Part shown: positions 600-26,195 of the stretch, piece after piece | How the letters are laid out: each line of letters starts with the position of its first letter | How positions within the stretch are numbered: position 1 is the stretch's first letter | NCBI GenBank assembly: GCA_016744695.1 | Contig: JADGDV010000025.1 | Span: 1 to 52,967 of the forward strand | Direction of reading: 5' to 3' | DNA from: Hahellaceae bacterium | Lineage (GTDB): Bacteria > Pseudomonadota > Gammaproteobacteria > Pseudomonadales > Oleiphilaceae | DNA length: 52,967 nt | The notes under the pieces: generated by a model | Databases searched by the model: none | What the model saw: only the letters and a program-made list of their open reading frames with translations | What the model was told of the DNA's origin: nothing | Position numbers and translations under genes: made by a program

Positions 600-3176
600 A
601 TGCGACTTAGACATGTATTACTGTTTACACTGGTTTTATTTAGCAGTTCCCAGTCGTTAGCAGATCAGAATCAAACCCAACAAGGAGTCTTTCAACAGCT
701 TATTAATGTAAGCTACTTAGAAGATGGCTCAGGCACACTTGACCTTAAAGATGTCAGAGAAAGCGCTCATACAGCTGAATGGATATCTATATCTGGGGAA
801 ACAGCCAACCTTGGATATACCGAGTCACCCTACTGGTTCCGTTTTACCATCACAAACACCGAAGCCAGCAACGCAGACAAACTAATAGTCATTAGCTACC
901 CTCAACTTGATTCCATCGATTATTACCGTATAGAAAATAAGTCCATCATCGAGCACACCGTTACCGGGGATAACTTTCCATTTTCTGAACGTCCTATTGA
1001 ACATCCATATTTTTTGTTCCCTACGGTAATCCCAGCCAACTCCACCGTCGAGTTTTTTATTCGCATGCAAACCGGCGGCACAATGAAAGCGCCCCTCTCA
1101 CTCTGGGATCGTCAGGGATTCCTTATTTCCATAGGGAAAGAAGACCAAATACACGCATTTTTCTACGGTATACTTATTGTACTGGCGTTATTTAATTTTT
1201 TCGTTTACTTGGCATTGCGAGAGAAAACCTACTTATACTACTCAATCGCCACTTTCGGTTATGCCTTCTTTTTTGCCACGATGAGAGGCAAACCCTTTCA
1301 GTTTTTATTTCCGGACTTCCCTGCAGTCCATAACCACAGTTTGTTGATAATCATCCCCCTTACCACCCTGTTTTCGGCACTATTTGCTCGATCATTCCTG
1401 TCACTAAAAGAACACAGCAAACTATTAGATAACACCACCAAAGTGATTTCAGCACTGGCATTAGGGTGCATCATTGCATCTCTTTTTGTTGATTATGCTT
1501 ACTCGATAAGAATCTCCGTGTTATTTGCCATTCCAAGCTATTTATTCCTACTTGCCTTAGGCCCTTTAATGTGGGGGAAAAGCGGGCAGTCAGCGCATTA
1601 TTATACGGTTGCCTGGAGTCTTCTGACTGCAGGTACAACAATAACAGCGCTCAATGGCGCAGGTGCAATACCCAATAGCTTTATAAGCGAGTATGGCATG
1701 CAAATTGGTTCGGCTCTCGAAGCAACCCTGCTAACGGTTGCGCTGGCGGCAAGGCTTTACCGCGAAAGAGAAGATAAACTAAGCGCTCAAGAATCTACCA
1801 TTCACGAACACAAAGAACGCCTGCAAACAGAAATGAAATTAGTACACCAGGCTTTGCACCACCCTGTCACAAAACTACCAAATAGAGCCTGCTTTGAAAT
1901 GCTTATTAATGATAGCGTTCGTCGCAGAAAAAACGGGAGTTTTGCGGTTTGCCTGCTTAATCTGACTCGCTTTCATGAAATCAATAAAACGCTGGGACAC
2001 AACAACGCCGACTTATTAATTCAAGAAACAGCCAGGTTAATTAATAAAACCGTACAAGCATTACCCGGCATTCAAATTGCCGAAAATAATGACAACAATC
2101 CATTTTATGCATTCTCTTTTGAAGGTGCCACATTTGGTGTTCTGCTTGATATAGCGAGCGCCGAGCAAACAAAAGAAATTGTTACCTCAGTTATTGATGA
2201 ACTTTATCACCCCATTGAATTCAAGGGCATGCTAATGGAGCTAGCACCTGCGATAGGCGTTTCATTTTTCCCGGAAAATGGTCGAGAAGCATCTACATTA
2301 ATCCGCCACGCCAACGTTGCACTAGAATCAGCAGAAACCAATGACCGAAAACTCGCTTATTACCAGCCAGAACAAGATAAATATAATGCCCGCCGCTTAA
2401 CGCTTATGTCAGAACTCAAGCAAGCTATTAGCAATAACCAATTAACACTGTACTTTCAACCGAAAATTAACCTTAACACTAATACAGTGGTAGGGCTTGA
2501 GGCGTTAATTCGCTGGAAGCACCATCGCTTTGGTTTTGTTCGACCTGATGAGTTTATTCCTATTGCAGAACAAACAGGCATTATCAAACCCCTTACTCGT
2601 TGGGTCGTTAAACGCTCACTAGAGGTTCAAAAAGAACTATTGGCAGAGGGGCATGACTTAGATATTTCTATTAATATTTCAGCCAAAAATCTTAGAGAAG
2701 ATGACTTTATTCCTTTCATTGCCGAAGCACTAAAAAGTAACCCCGACCATATAGACAAAATCACCATAGAGCTAACCGAAACCTCTATGATGGAAGACCC
2801 TCTTAAAGCGCTTCAGGTATTAAATGAGCTAAGCCAGTCAGGCGTTAAGCTATCTATTGATGACTTTGGGACGGGCTATTCATCACTTGCTTACATTAAG
2901 AAACTACCAGCAGATGTAATTAAGATTGATAAATCCCTAGTGTTTGACCTAACTAACAATAGCGATGACCAGGTCATCATTAAAACAACCATTGAAATGT
3001 GCCACCGCCTTGGGTTTACCGTTGTTGCAGAGGGCGTAGAGAGCCAGAGCATTGTAGATATTTTACGAGAACTTAATTGCGACTTATTACAAGGCTACTT
3101 TATCTCCCCTCCGCTCCCCCTAAACAAACTGAAACTCTGGCTAACCGATATTGATGATTATGCCGCGCTCGCCTAA
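600..3176 (+). CDS. 7TMR-DISM membrane protein with degenerate GGDEF and EAL domain (c-di-GMP phosphodiesterase)
   Basis: The 858-residue protein has a signal peptide (about residues 1-21), a periplasmic DISM-type sensing region (about 35-165), seven membrane segments (about 185-390), a GGDEF-like domain (about 420-590) and an EAL domain (about 610-850). The GGDEF motif is degenerate: the expected position reads EGATF, so cyclase activity is unlikely. The EAL domain looks complete: EAL at 634-636, ELTET, DDFG at 754-757, KID, AEGVES and QGYF are all visible. The likely role is therefore c-di-GMP hydrolysis controlled by a periplasmic ligand, with the GGDEF domain possibly sensing GTP. It follows another c-di-GMP gene on the same strand after 230 bp with no obvious terminator. 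Confidence 0.9.
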   Translation: MRLRHVLLFTLVLFSSSQSLADQNQTQQGVFQQLINVSYLEDGSGTLDLKDVRESAHTAEWISISGETANLGYTESPYWFRFTITNTEASNADKLIVISYPQLDSIDYYRIENKSIIEHTVTGDNFPFSERPIEHPYFLFPTVIPANSTVEFFIRMQTGGTMKAPLSLWDRQGFLISIGKEDQIHAFFYGILIVLALFNFFVYLALREKTYLYYSIATFGYAFFFATMRGKPFQFLFPDFPAVHNHSLLIIIPLTTLFSALFARSFLSLKEHSKLLDNTTKVISALALGCIIASLFVDYAYSIRISVLFAIPSYLFLLALGPLMWGKSGQSAHYYTVAWSLLTAGTTITALNGAGAIPNSFISEYGMQIGSALEATLLTVALAARLYREREDKLSAQESTIHEHKERLQTEMKLVHQALHHPVTKLPNRACFEMLINDSVRRRKNGSFAVCLLNLTRFHEINKTLGHNNADLLIQETARLINKTVQALPGIQIAENNDNNPFYAFSFEGATFGVLLDIASAEQTKEIVTSVIDELYHPIEFKGMLMELAPAIGVSFFPENGREASTLIRHANVALESAETNDRKLAYYQPEQDKYNARRLTLMSELKQAISNNQLTLYFQPKINLNTNTVVGLEALIRWKHHRFGFVRPDEFIPIAEQTGIIKPLTRWVVKRSLEVQKELLAEGHDLDISINISAKNLREDDFIPFIAEALKSNPDHIDKITIELTETSMMEDPLKALQVLNELSQSGVKLSIDDFGTGYSSLAYIKKLPADVIKIDKSLVFDLTNNSDDQVIIKTTIEMCHRLGFTVVAEGVESQSIVDILRELNCDLLQGYFISPPLPLNKLKLWLTDIDDYAALA

Positions 3177-11625: not shown

Positions 11626-12258
11626 ATGAACATAAATCAGATCCCCATTGTATATCAAGACGACCACGTTATAGTTGCTGTGAAACCTAACGGTCTACTT
11701 TCGGTACCCGGCAGAGCTCCAGAGCATAAAGATTGTCTCATTACCCGCATCCAGCAAGACCGCCCTGAAGCACTTACGGTTCATAGGTTAGATTGTGAAA
11801 CATCTGGATTAGTTGTGCTTGCCTGCAATAAAGAGAGCCAGCGTGAACTGAGCCGACAATTTCATGACCGAGAAACTAAAAAGCGATATGTTGCCATTGT
11901 GAATGGTCTCATTTCTGAGATGGAAGGTGAGATCAATGTGCCGTTAATGAAAGACTGGCCAAACCGTCCAAAGCAAAAAATAGACTTAGAACAAGGTAAG
12001 TCAGCCCAAACCCATTATAAAGTACTCAGTCATACACATGACGAAACCCGAGTTGAACTCATACCCATAACGGGGCGCACCCACCAATTAAGGGTACATA
12101 TGCTATCCCTCGGCCACCCTATTCTGGGCGACAGCCTTTACGGCACTGAGCAATGTTTGAAAAAGTCTCCACGTATGCTGCTTCATGCCCTTGAGCTAGG
12201 TTTTCATCATCCAACCACAGGAGAATGGTGTGTTTACCAATATCCAGCAGAGTTTTAG
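11626..12258 (+). CDS. rluA: Dual-specificity pseudouridine synthase RluA
   Basis: RluA isomerises U746 of 23S rRNA and U32 of some tRNAs to pseudouridine. The 210-residue protein closely follows E. coli RluA (219): VYQDDHVIVAVKPNGLLSVP, HRLDCETSG with catalytic Asp56, DWPNRPKQK, PITGRTHQLRVHML and GHPILGDSLYG. It has no S4 domain, as expected for RluA and TruC. Its end overlaps the downstream VanZ-like gene by 29 bp, which suggests coupled expression. Confidence 0.94.
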   Translation: MNINQIPIVYQDDHVIVAVKPNGLLSVPGRAPEHKDCLITRIQQDRPEALTVHRLDCETSGLVVLACNKESQRELSRQFHDRETKKRYVAIVNGLISEMEGEINVPLMKDWPNRPKQKIDLEQGKSAQTHYKVLSHTHDETRVELIPITGRTHQLRVHMLSLGHPILGDSLYGTEQCLKKSPRMLLHALELGFHHPTTGEWCVYQYPAEF

Positions 12259-12640
12259 TGCTTTATTTAGCCCCAGGTTATCAAAACTTCATCAAACCGC
12301 ACTGTGGTGTGCTGTTATTGCTATTTTATATCTTGCAACCACTTCGGTAGATCATAAAGTTCAGTCTACGTTTAATGACAAGTTTAACCACTTATTTGCC
12401 TTTATTGTGCTCTCTTTTCTGGCTCATATTGCATATTCTAAAATGCAAAAAATTAAATGGGCTGCCGCTTTATTTTTCTACGGGCTACTTATTGAATGTA
12501 TTCAATACTTTTTGCCCCATCGTGAGTTCTCACTACTTGACCTCGCTACAGATGCCTTGGGCATAATCGTTTATCTTATTATTTTCTGTTCACTTTTTGA
12601 CCGAATTATAAGTAAACAAGCTCTTAATAATAACGAGTAA
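12230..12640 (+). CDS. VanZ-like family membrane protein
   Basis: The 136-residue protein has about four membrane helices and the VanZ pattern: DKFNHLFAFIVLSFL, then LLIECIQYFLPHREFSLLDLATDALGI. VanZ-like proteins are small membrane proteins. The founding member gives low-level teicoplanin resistance, but most homologues have no known role. No van cluster is present, so resistance is not implied. The only in-frame start gives a 29-bp overlap with rluA. Confidence 0.8.
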   Translation: MFTNIQQSFSALFSPRLSKLHQTALWCAVIAILYLATTSVDHKVQSTFNDKFNHLFAFIVLSFLAHIAYSKMQKIKWAAALFFYGLLIECIQYFLPHREFSLLDLATDALGIIVYLIIFCSLFDRIISKQALNNNE

Positions 12641-12693
12641 CGGGTTATTCAATAATTAAGAATATTACCGCGTAGGACATTATCCATTGTCTT

Positions 12694-12756
12694 TGTGCGA
12701 GATCTCTTACAAACATGTAGGATATCTCCCTTAATTACTGTAGTCCTGCTCTTACG
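12694..12756 (+). promoter_or_regulatory. GacA/UvrY-type upstream activating sites of the CsrB-like RNA
   Basis: TGTGCGAGATCTCTTACA (12694-12711) differs by one base from the 18-bp UvrY palindrome I recall for enterobacterial csrB/csrC, and has the TGTAAG-N6-CTTACA layout of pseudomonad GacA sites. A weaker second copy, TGTAGTCCTGCTCTTACG, lies at 12739-12756. They sit 125-190 bp before the predicted RNA start, where such enhancer-like sites are usually found. The regulator itself is not in this window. Confidence 0.75.
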
Positions 12757-12835
12757 CGCCATCACAAAAAAACTATCCAGTTGTTTTATATAGGTTTATT
12801 GAGCGCTCTAAAATTATCATTTATAAAGTACGGAA

Positions 12836-12872
12836 CTATGTCACATAGACGGCTATAGCCAGCTGTTATATT
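12836..12872 (+). promoter_or_regulatory. Candidate promoter of the CsrB-like RNA
   Basis: A TATATT -10-like element (12867-12872) lies just before the first GGA-bearing sequence, suggesting a start near 12880. No good -35 is seen, as expected for an activator-dependent promoter. A 13-bp palindrome, CTATGTCACATAG (12836-12848), covers the -35 position and might bind a regulator. The exact start is inferred. Confidence 0.45.
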
Positions 12873-12879
12873 TATCTCA

Positions 12880-13323
12880 GTCAAGGCCGACTGGGAACAA
12901 GGACTTAACTAGGATGGTTTCTTCGTAAGGATGCGAAGGGAAGCAAGGATAGATGGAATCTATTAGCTTAAGGGATATATTCAGGATGTGAAGCAAGGTC
13001 GCTTCATTTAGAGCAAGGAGATAATCTAGCTCATAAGGATACAGGACTGGCCACGGTAGGCTAAAAGGAAACAAGGACTGTTTGGAATTAAAGGAACAAT
13101 ACGGATATTGAAATCGTTGGACACCCAGGAAGGGCAGGAAGCCAAAGGATAAGCAAGGTTGCATTGGCGCACTGACGGATCAGTGAGATTTCAAGGTAGA
13201 AAGCTATAGGGACTTTAAAGGACTTATAAAACCTAAAATAAAGGTGGCGATAGCCGTATCATGGAAGATTGAAACAGACCTGTTCCAACGCAAGGGCAAC
13301 CGTAAGGTGAGCCCTTTTATTTT
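12880..13323 (+). ncRNA. csrB: CsrB-like regulatory RNA that sequesters CsrA/RsmA
   Basis: About 445 bases carry roughly 25 GGA triplets, many in CAAGGA, CAGGA or TAAGGAT contexts; about 7 would be expected by chance. This is the hallmark of CsrB/CsrC/RsmZ RNAs, whose loops bind and titrate the translational regulator CsrA. The segment has no supported protein gene. It ends in a good intrinsic terminator (13292-13323) and is preceded by UvrY/GacA-type sites. Its length is nearer to CsrB (about 360) than to the 110-130-base RsmY/Z. The long open frame upstream of mnmH crosses this RNA and is not coding. Boundaries are estimates; csrA, barA and uvrY are not in the window. Confidence 0.88.
13292..13323 (+). 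terminator. Intrinsic terminator of the CsrB-like RNA
   Basis: AAGGGC (13292-13297) pairs with GCCCTT (13311-13316). An inner ACC/GGT stem is closed by a GTAA tetraloop, and the run TTTTATTTT follows. Shape and position match the 3' end of a CsrB RNA. Confidence 0.88.
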
Positions 13324-13372
13324 GTCTAAAATTTATCGTAGTGCTGTTATTGTCTTTTTTAAGATGAAGATA

Positions 13373-13471: not shown

Positions 13472-14584
13472 ATGACTAATCGTCCTAATACCGATGACTT
13501 TCTTGCACTTTTCCTGAACGATACTCCTATGATGGATGTACGAGCACCTGTTGAATATTCAAAAGGCGCATTTCCAAATACAGTAAATGAGCCATTAATG
13601 AATGATGATGAGCGTCATTTAGTGGGTATTCGTTATAAGCAAAAAGGGCAAGATAGCGCTATTGAGTTAGGCAATGAATTGGTTTGCGGAGAAACGAAAG
13701 CGCAACGCCTTGCCCAATGGCTCGCATTTACTGAACAAAACCCTGAAGGCTACCTTTATTGCTTTCGTGGAGGACTTCGTTCACGAACGACTCAGCAATG
13801 GATTAAAGAGGCCGGCGTAGACTACCCCCTGATCACCGGCGGCTACAAAGCGATGCGTCGATTCTTAATTGATGAATTAGAAAAATCAGTTAAGGCGCTC
13901 AATTTTAGAGTGATTAGCGGTCGAACAGGCACAGGTAAAACAAGAGTGCTCAAACTCACCCCTAATTTTGTTGACTTAGAAGGGCTAGCGAATCATCGAG
14001 GCTCAAGTTTTGGCAGACAATTAACACCTCAACCCGGCCAGATCGATTTTGAAAATGCACTTTCAATTGAGCTTCTAAAATCCATCCACCACCGTAGTGG
14101 GCCAGTCTATATTGAAGATGAAAGCAGGCTGATAGGTCGAAGTGCTATTCCTCAGGCATTTCGTGATGTATCTACCCTTAGTGACATTGTTGTTTTAGAA
14201 GCATCGATAGATGAAAGAATGGATATTGTTCTGCAAGATTATGTTATCGACATGACTCAGGCTTACCAGTCACATGCAGGCTCTGAAACGGGGTTTTCCT
14301 TATTTTCAGAATACCTGCTTGGTAGCGTTTCTAGAATTTCAAAAAGACTGGGCGGAGAACAAACTAAGCGCCTTGAAGGCATCATGCATAATGCACTAAA
14401 TATACAAAAATCTGCAGGAAATTTAGATGCGCAAAGCGTAGAACCTCACAAAGAGTGGATACAAATACTCCTATCAGATTATTACGACCCGATGTACGAC
14501 TACCAATTAAGTAAAAAGTCTAAGCAAATAATATTTAAAGGCGATAAGTGCGGTATTTTAGAATGGGTAAAAGAAACCACCTAA
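13472..14584 (+). CDS. mnmH: tRNA 2-selenouridine synthase
   Basis: MnmH (SelU, YbbB) uses selenophosphate to replace sulfur by selenium at wobble uridine 34 of certain tRNAs. From this ATG the protein is 370 residues (E. coli 364). It has an N-terminal rhodanese domain with catalytic Cys97 in YCFRGGLRSR, the same number as in E. coli, and a C-terminal P-loop domain with GRTGTGKT at 150-157. That agreement decides the start: the frame is open back to 13244, but that stretch crosses the CsrB-like RNA and its terminator. No strong ribosome site is visible. It is followed after 60 bp by a selenium-type ABC transporter and selD. Confidence 0.94.
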   Translation: MTNRPNTDDFLALFLNDTPMMDVRAPVEYSKGAFPNTVNEPLMNDDERHLVGIRYKQKGQDSAIELGNELVCGETKAQRLAQWLAFTEQNPEGYLYCFRGGLRSRTTQQWIKEAGVDYPLITGGYKAMRRFLIDELEKSVKALNFRVISGRTGTGKTRVLKLTPNFVDLEGLANHRGSSFGRQLTPQPGQIDFENALSIELLKSIHHRSGPVYIEDESRLIGRSAIPQAFRDVSTLSDIVVLEASIDERMDIVLQDYVIDMTQAYQSHAGSETGFSLFSEYLLGSVSRISKRLGGEQTKRLEGIMHNALNIQKSAGNLDAQSVEPHKEWIQILLSDYYDPMYDYQLSKKSKQIIFKGDKCGILEWVKETT

Positions 14585-24889: not shown

Positions 24890-25115
24890 TACTAATAAAC
24901 ACCCTGAAGCAGAAAAATACGATGAACACTATAGCTAAACTATATCAGAGATATCTAAATAGGGTGCTGCAAGGAGTAATATATTTTCCTTAATGCAGTG
25001 ATCTAAGCAAGGAAATAATTTTTTGTAGTATTAACTCACTATGATTAGTAGTATTAGCCCTGTAAAATTATGGCATTGCCCCCTTCAACTTAGTGGAGAG
25101 GGATGGAAAAGGACA

Positions 25116-26195
25116 ATGGCGCGAAGGGATATGGCACACCAAAGTGATGATCTTGCTCAGGCAGTACGATATTTAAAGCTTACACTCCCCGAAATGAGCA
25201 AGCGGGAAATACCCACTACACCTGAAAATTATTCTGTCTGGTACGAATACACGGCAGGAACAAACCACGACCTAAAACAATCCATAGATAGCTTAATTAA
25301 AGCCAATACGGAATTTTCTGACCAGGTCAATGAAGATCTCTATCAAAAATTTATCGGCGGCGGGCAGCAAACCGCTATTACAGAGATCCGAGATAGCGTT
25401 AGACAAGTCATTAATGACCTTCTAGCTCAGATATCCGCAGAAGGGGATGGCCTTGGTGATTATGCAAAAACTCTCGAAAGCTTTTCTGAAAAAGTCAACG
25501 ACACCATTGACTCCAGCGCCGTCAACCTGTTGATCGGTGAACTGCTGATTGAAACTAAAAAAAGAGAAGAAGCCACTCATAACTTGCAAAGCACATTGGA
25601 TACAATGGCTCAAGAAATGACGCAATTAAGACAAGAGGTCGCCCGGTTAAATGATGAAGCCAGTACCGATGCGCTAACGAAAGTCAGCAACCGCAGAGCT
25701 TACGACATAGCTATTGAACGAGCAGTATCTGCAAGCAAAATGAACTCAACTCTTTTAAGTGTACTAATACTAGATATCGATCACTTCAAAAAATTTAACG
25801 ATAAGTTTGGTCATATTGTTGGAGACAAGGTGCTTCGCTTTGTTGCTGCCATGCTGCAAAAACATGTTAAAGGTAATGATACTGTAGCGCGCTTCGGCGG
25901 TGAAGAATTCGCAGTCATCCTTCCTGAAACAAGTTACACCGATGCACTGTCTGTGGCCGAAAATGCAAGAAAACGAATCAGCGCACAAGTGCTTTCTGAT
26001 AGCGCAGAAAACATTAAGCTGGGTTCAGTAAACGTATCTATTGGTGTTGCGCAATATCGCTACGGAGAAAGCCCTGAAGAGTTCATTCACCGCGCTGACA
26101 AGTGCTTATATCAAGCAAAGAGTAATGGTCGAAACAGAGTGGTTGGCGAAGGGGATTATGAAGAACGTAAGGCACCACAACAGCAGACTATTTAA
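25116..26195 (+). CDS. Diguanylate cyclase, GGDEF domain
   Basis: The 359-residue cytoplasmic protein has a helical N-terminal sensory region (LKLTLPEMSKREIPTTPENYSVWYEY, about residues 20-45, then a coiled coil to about 185) and a C-terminal GGDEF domain with ARFGGEEFAVIL. The position of the RxxD inhibitory site reads KGND, so product inhibition may be weak. The start is uncertain: ATG 25116 follows AAGGAC closely, ATG 25131 follows GAAGGG, and the frame is open to 25041. It synthesises c-di-GMP; the input signal is unknown. Confidence 0.88.
   Translation: MARRDMAHQSDDLAQAVRYLKLTLPEMSKREIPTTPENYSVWYEYTAGTNHDLKQSIDSLIKANTEFSDQVNEDLYQKFIGGGQQTAITEIRDSVRQVINDLLAQISAEGDGLGDYAKTLESFSEKVNDTIDSSAVNLLIGELLIETKKREEATHNLQSTLDTMAQEMTQLRQEVARLNDEASTDALTKVSNRRAYDIAIERAVSASKMNSTLLSVLILDIDHFKKFNDKFGHIVGDKVLRFVAAMLQKHVKGNDTVARFGGEEFAVILPETSYTDALSVAENARKRISAQVLSDSAENIKLGSVNVSIGVAQYRYGESPEEFIHRADKCLYQAKSNGRNRVVGEGDYEERKAPQQQTI

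Follow-up and report, generated by a model that had tools for sequence, protein, structure and literature searches.

A predicted GacA-activated, CsrB-type RNA in the gap before mnmH of a Hahellaceae bacterium

The gap before mnmH in a Hahellaceae bacterium (positions 12880-13323 of the 52,967 nt analyzed here, referred to as the window) very probably encodes a non-coding RNA of the CsrB/RsmB type that is activated by GacA and titrates CsrA. The initial annotation had described the region as a CsrB-like CsrA sponge. This claim is supported by an excess of GGA motifs, a covarying hairpin with GGA in its loop, a terminator, and a csrB-type UvrY/GacA palindrome at about the csrB distance. It gains further support from GGA-rich RNAs in relatives without a conserved reading frame, and from homologs of CsrA, GacA, and GacS/BarA in the genome. 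Transcription, activation by GacA, CsrA binding, and a downstream phenotype are predictions made on the basis of the anatomy, conservation, covariation, and protein partners described below. The features are listed in Table 1.

Table 1. Features of the predicted RNA and its surroundings (window coordinates)
Feature	Position	Strand	Remarks
VanZ-like gene	12230..12640	+	Upstream neighbor
Conserved upstream activating region	12672..12737	+	Common to same-genus relatives (blastn-type matches, alignment)
GacA/UvrY palindrome TGTGCGAGATCTCTTACA	12694..12711	+	18 nt; center at -177 if 12880 is +1
Second half-site TGTAGGATA	12716..12724	+	4 nt after the palindrome
Promoter	12840..12872	+	GTCACA - 21 nt - TATATT, TG before the -10 (extended -10)
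Predicted CsrB-like sponge RNA	12880..13323	+	~440 nt, 25 GGA; start predicted from the -10 and the conserved 5′ end
Conserved 5′ core (model R1)	12880..12979	+	37-sequence alignment, pair counts, genome searches
Hairpin 2	12920..12939	+	GGA in loop; double changes in 5 of 7 pairs (37 sequences)
Hairpin 3 (AAGC/GCTT)	12941..12969	+	Invariance built in by the search pattern
CCTGTTCC (CTGTTCC-like) element	13279..13286	+	Before the terminator
Intrinsic terminator	13292..13323	+	Minimum-energy fold, alignment of relatives, census
mnmH	13472..14584	+	Start probably 13472

About 25 GGA triplets had been claimed for this region, and exactly 25 are present in the 444 nt of 12880-13323. By sequence context, there are 15 AGGA, 10 AAGGA, 4 CAGGA, 4 CAAGGA, and 2 TAAGGAT, and 17 ANGGA were counted. 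Dinucleotide shuffles of the region contained a mean of 15.0 GGA (sd 2.5), and 0 of 2,000 reached 25. Windows of 444 nt on the + strand hold 3.2 GGA on average (all windows, 12880-13323 included), and the maximum on the - strand is 13. The many GGA and ANGGA motifs that characterize CsrA-sequestering RNAs are present beyond chance.

The minimum-energy fold of 12870-13330 reached -122.4 kcal/mol, compared with -106.8 ± 6.1 kcal/mol for 100 shuffles (z = -2.55). As a check, the initial annotation had proposed counting the GGA located in loops. In the single-sequence ensemble, 18 of the 25 GGA had an unpaired probability above 0.5, and the mean unpaired probability was 0.64 for GGA bases vs 0.45 for all bases. 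Both these 18 motifs and the covarying hairpin 2 predict GGA in hairpin loops or single strands. The terminator proposed for the end of the RNA was recovered in the minimum-energy fold as an AAGGGC/GCCCTT stem at 13292-13316, followed by TTTTATTTT; this stem is not in the output of a simple terminator scan that admits loops of 3-8 only. On sequence evidence, the region is a non-coding unit with its own promoter and intrinsic terminator. We also noted that the CCTGTTCC element at 13279-13286 has been kept in addition to the GGA sites. Of 36 sequences, 25 carry a similar element, 15-60 nt upstream of the RNA end, and inspection by eye found no consistent GGAACAG partner for the element.

An alignment of 37 distinct 5′ cores, including that of the window, supports a structure of three hairpins. 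In this structure, 93.6% of the cells were paired, vs 87.9% in shuffled alignments and at most 48.3% when the structure was slid along the alignment. Cells with double changes numbered 38 vs 10.6 in shuffled alignments, and the covariation score was 0.235 vs 0.122. Pairs with double changes numbered 5 vs 3.3, a value reached by 30 of 500 shuffles. The covariation signal sits in hairpin 2, and most members have a GGA in the loop of this hairpin. The pattern used to collect the sequences includes hairpin 3 and some of the 3′ arm of hairpin 2, so that the invariance of these parts carries no weight. In the host's genus, GGA is absent from the 5′ hairpin; the top pair of this hairpin is unpaired in 21 of the 37 sequences.

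Upstream of the RNA, the control region resembles that of Escherichia coli csrB, for which the accessible part of the published description gives a UvrY site, TGTGAGAGATCTCTTACA, centered at -183/-182, and TGTAGGAGA 5 bp downstream of it (PMC4682653). The letters of TGTGAGAGATCTCTTACA and TGTAGGAGA were confirmed in the E. coli sequence record, and the host palindrome at 12694-12711 differs from this UvrY site at a single base. A terminator was recognized in 36 of the 37 sequences, and 33 of these 36 (window included) carry a palindrome-type site. For 32 of these sites the center falls between -176 and -182, and for the remaining one it is at -170; under the census pattern, no palindrome was found for L050, L054, and L068. 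The predicted RNA start at 12880 follows from the extended -10 (TG-T-TATATT, ending at 12872) and the conserved 5′ end GTCA. A promoter scan found no standard promoter at this start. The GTCAC element was rejected as a universal feature; it occurs at similar spacing in 21 of 37 sequences (window included).

The genome encodes the proteins with which such an RNA would act. CsrA is encoded at C2:51402, and 49 of its first 52 residues are identical to those of E. coli CsrA (manual count). A GacA is the best match to UvrY, with 55% identity across residues 1-215 of 218 (E = 3e-70; next match 2e-25). The best match to BarA is a 981-aa frame (E = 4e-129; second 6e-100), one of 99 matches in the genome. 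The predicted GacA site and these putative GacA and GacS/BarA homologs are consistent with activation through the Gac pathway. Phosphorylated GacA (UvrY type) would bind the palindrome at 12694-12711 and activate the extended -10 promoter, with transcription starting ~177 bp downstream of the palindrome. The ~440-nt transcript would then offer ~25 GGA sites, many of them in hairpin loops or single strands. Binding of several CsrA dimers to these sites would release CsrA-controlled mRNAs, and short GacA-boxed RNAs elsewhere in the host genome would add to the titration of CsrA.

To follow the RNA through related bacteria, several searches were combined. A DNA search with 12640-13340 matched 15 of 58 genomes, counting the host. 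In each of the four other genomes of the host's genus, the upstream region matched, as did the terminator and the 5′ part of the RNA; the middle has diverged, still being GGA-rich. Weaker matches in G014, in G026, and at a second place in G003 covered the palindrome region alone. With a pattern for the core, 31 stretches were retrieved from the genome collection; 28 of them were kept and three were judged to be chance. The kept stretches come from Marinobacter, Hahella, Halospina, Halovibrio, Mangrovitalea, Tamilnaduibacter, an uncultured Oleiphilaceae MAG, records labeled Halomonas, Vreelandella, or Halomonadaceae, and gammaproteobacterial MAGs. Those rejected, from Desulforhopalus (L057), Lachnospiraceae (L061), and Solincola (L076), had neither a terminator nor a GacA box and contained 9, 14, and 12 GGA in 500 nt. 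One stretch in which the same script recognized neither feature, L062 from Marinobacter persicus, was kept for its organism and its 18 GGA, and is not counted in the ranges of length and GGA number given below.

Among 151 genomes of the family, the core pattern was found in 40, representing 14 of 16 genera, and a reversed control gave no match. The covariance model R1 matched 54 of 61 sampled family genomes (host included), again from 14 of 16 genera, Marinobacter and Hahella among them. Of these 54 genomes, 20 have no exact match to the collecting pattern. The seven genomes missed by R1 are all the sampled genomes of genera g3 and g4, and more than one match was found in five genomes (G010, G014, G061, G064, and G077). 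Across the order, R1 matched 13 of 293 genomes, and each of the 13 belongs to the host's family; among the 280 without a match, 260 are not itemized. Stricter filters applied to both R1 searches, and distant copies may thus have been missed.

In the census of the 36 sequences with a terminator, RNA length ranged from 189 to 645 nt (median 233) and GGA number from 12 to 44 (median 15), which is 1.8 to 6.4 sd above dinucleotide shuffles. The RNAs of the host's genus contain 25, 24, 44, 24, and 31 GGA. One stretch (L058, G010:C7:6738-7362) carries four tandem core matches within one predicted 625-nt RNA with 35 GGA, which can be read as growth by duplication of the whole core.

The genes around the RNA were compared with those of its relatives. 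Using the start at 13472, 16 of 23 matching relatives align with mnmH from residue 1; the frame from GTG 13244 is probably an upstream extension. A VanZ-like neighbor was rejected as a family-wide feature, since 21 of 34 relatives have it no more than 1 kb upstream of the core, two have it at 3-5 kb, and 11 gave no match. Between 13472 and 19954, mnmH is grouped with a phosphonate-type ABC transporter and a fusion gene of a pyridine-nucleotide oxidoreductase with AIRS (selenide-water-dikinase-like). This grouping hints at a selenium cluster, whose transporter might carry a selenium compound.

The proximity of mnmH raises an alternative, namely that the GGA-rich stretch is the 5′ leader of mnmH, through which CsrA would regulate this gene in cis with the terminator acting as an attenuator. 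Both lie on the same strand, mnmH starts ~150 nt after the terminator, and 22 of 34 relatives have mnmH no more than 3 kb downstream of the core (sequence reaching that far was available for 24 of them). Against a leader, the terminator is recognized in all but one of the 37 sequences, and the four same-genus relatives have 1.3-1.5 kb between the core and the start of mnmH. The core of Hahella (L030) is followed by a convergently oriented gene for a PrmA-type methyltransferase, and the 3.6 kb examined there contain no mnmH. Moreover, 25 sites are far above the need of a leader. We consider this explanation very unlikely. It is even harder to sustain that the region is a functionless, purine-rich stretch of low complexity: GGA does arise in purine-rich DNA, and dinucleotide shuffles still yield 15 GGA, but the GacA palindrome, promoter, and terminator are conserved in position and the core spans 14 of 16 genera. 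Finally, a small protein gene, e.g. the 95-aa frame that is open on the - strand at 12877-13164, has next to no probability, as the 286-nt counterpart lacks a stop-free antisense frame in four of four same-genus relatives and the alignment shows gaps of varied length and compensatory base changes. This frame is the largest in the region and is not conserved in these relatives, in line with the earlier statement that no real gene lies inside.

A CsrB/RsmB-type RNA with its own promoter is the reading we retain for 12880-13323. The initial annotation had also pointed to three c-di-GMP enzymes nearby as frequent CsrA targets. A domain check of eight window proteins found two (GGDEF-EAL, 600-3176; GGDEF, 25041-26195) and did not find the third; of the other two candidates, one is a response regulator and one an HDOD protein. 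The link of the c-di-GMP enzymes to the CsrA RNA is a weak one of proximity.

The host genome has six sites that fit the GacA palindrome pattern with at most one mismatch (6 matches on each strand, compared with 2 on each for the reversed control), and five of the six are exact (reversed control 0). One belongs to the long RNA, and four precede short RNAs of 124-160 nt with 8-9 GGA. The sixth (L041) lies before a divergent candidate (128 nt, 7 GGA) and also faces a gene for a beta-CASP nuclease. For the short RNAs, a model (R2) was built from 14 aligned sequences of five same-genus genomes. It matched 6, 4, 6, 3, and 3 places in G000-G004 and, overall, 15 of 61 family genomes from four of 16 genera. 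Of the six matches in the host (G000), four lie behind a GacA palindrome; the other two, with lower scores (68 and 35 bits), lack a palindrome match. The host's short RNAs do not reach the 57 bits required for RsmY (RF00195), scoring 22.6 and 20.7 bits at two of five loci, with no match up to E = 1 at the other three.

Exact matches to the palindrome pattern were present in 26 of 38 genomes (reversed control 0 of 38). In the four same-genus relatives, the long RNA apart, 13 of 17 boxes have, within 360 nt, a stretch of 150 nt with 7 or more GGA, compared with 13 of 1,969 random windows drawn from the host window, a control for host composition only. The boxes without a clear short RNA were L175 and L182 (4 GGA per 150 nt) and L183 and L184 (6 each). 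Boxes from other genera reached 7 or more GGA per 150 nt in 10 of 17 examined cases, and one of these 10 (L190) resembles coding sequence. Reading by eye added one more box, which lies upstream of an MBL-fold gene in G003.

We also observed that short Rsm-type RNA genes adjoin genes for Rpn-like nucleases on G000:C20 (L211, L043, L044) and G000:C6 (L042); the one such neighbor tested is a Transposase_31 (PF04754). On the 4.7-kb contig C20, the RNAs stand in tandem, with R2 matches at 336, 2408, and 4202, as if Rsm-type RNA and Rpn-like nuclease genes multiplied together. A third, divergent class of GacA-boxed short GGA RNA was recognized by eye (L041 at G000:C6:28947, L172, L176, L184, and L193). 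At L041, the box separates a beta-CASP/MBL nuclease gene from the RNA, and a small helix-hairpin-helix (ComEA-like) gene comes after the RNA; with the box in this position, GacA might also control a ribonuclease. Genus g4 (G007, G021, G026, G031, and G036) has no R1 match. It does have exact GacA boxes in G007 and G021, one seen by eye in G026, and an R2 match of 94 bits in G036, so the long RNA may have been lost there and the short ones kept.

Tentatively, these observations might be joined into a two-tier Csr sponge for the family. Its first tier would be one long RNA in which a constant structured 5′ core and the CTGTTCC 3′ element enclose a GGA array that grows and contracts (12 to 44 sites). 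The second, in the host's genus, would consist of multiplying short GacA-boxed RNAs, some in tandem with Rpn-like nuclease genes. Possibly, the constant ends are more than CsrA sites, e.g. a loading or decay signal, and the length of the array sets the titration threshold of a species.

CsrA sponges set the timing of gammaproteobacterial shifts in carbon use, motility, and biofilm life. The working principle, by which GacS/GacA turns on RNAs that titrate CsrA, is already known, and the member described here is lineage-specific. The RNA family, its distribution, and the host's mixed set of long and short RNAs appear to be undescribed within the literature searched. Titles and abstract openings of the Marinobacter literature on CsrB, CsrA, RsmZ, and (for the most part) GacA, and of the Hahella literature on CsrB, yielded no paper describing such an RNA. 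An earlier paper on CsrA-RNA prediction (NAR 2006) may already contain a prediction of it. The main text of another prediction paper names neither Marinobacter nor Hahella (PMC5568370). In a metatranscriptome, CsrA was upregulated in a Marinobacter, and small RNAs go unmentioned in the accessible part of that report (PMC10516948). As the RNA reaches the gathering score of no family in Rfam release 15, yet is present in 54 of 61 family genomes, studies of regulation in Marinobacter and Hahella may overlook a main CsrA antagonist. Its presence in most sampled relatives makes it matter for lifestyle switching of these marine bacteria, and relatives with 12 to 44 sites per RNA form a natural series for the evolution of sponge capacity.

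A search with Rfam models had been suggested at the outset. The best match was indeed CsrB, at 22.2 bits (E = 5e-4 for 841 nt), and this is below the gathering score of 71 bits, so that membership of RF00018 (CsrB/RsmB) was rejected; by the same comparison, automatic annotation would miss the RNA, as had been anticipated. At gathering scores, Rfam gave no match in the window, nor in 15 loci of relatives, 12 of which contain the RNA. Relaxed scans found CsrB in three of nine loci (E = 9e-4, 0.011, and 0.75), and a second relaxed scan, with E up to 0.5, found it in none of six. As a control, E. coli csrB scored 380.4 bits with the Rfam CsrB model. R1 gives E. coli csrB 9 bits, too weak to claim common descent with enterobacterial CsrB. 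A plasmid search gave no match.

Among known systems, the RNA resembles E. coli CsrB (RF00018) in its length class (csrB has 369 nt and 22 GGA, compared with ~440 nt and 25 here), in its GGA hairpins and terminator, and in a UvrY palindrome near -180 with a TGTAGGA half-site just downstream. It differs in that its sequence is not recognizably homologous and its gene neighbors are different. With RsmY (RF00195) and RsmX/RsmZ of Pseudomonas, it would share the role of a GacA-controlled CsrA/RsmA sponge; the 12880-13323 RNA is 3-4 times longer than the Rsm RNAs and has about four times their GGA. Several Csr RNAs of unequal size are also found in another marine gammaproteobacterium, Pseudoalteromonas fuliginea, compared here by description. 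Its Pf1-Pf3 contain 25, 21, and 9 GGA, and Pf1 and Pf2 are reported, in the accessible part of the source, without matches beyond Pseudoalteromonas (PMC11882849). Pf1-Pf3 were bench-tested, Pf2 and Pf3 also by a glycogen test in E. coli K-12 (PMC11882849), in contrast to the host RNA, which is predicted from sequence. Aln1a-c of Alteromonas, also a marine bacterium, are analogs of CsrB-C/RsmX-Z according to the accessible description on which this comparison is based (PMC5864184). As far as the available excerpts go, duplication of CsrB is known in vibrios (PMC6262261), and CsrR1 and CsrR2 have been proposed in Alcanivorax (PMC9788540). By its anatomy, the 12880-13323 RNA would be placed functionally among these GacA-activated CsrA sponges.
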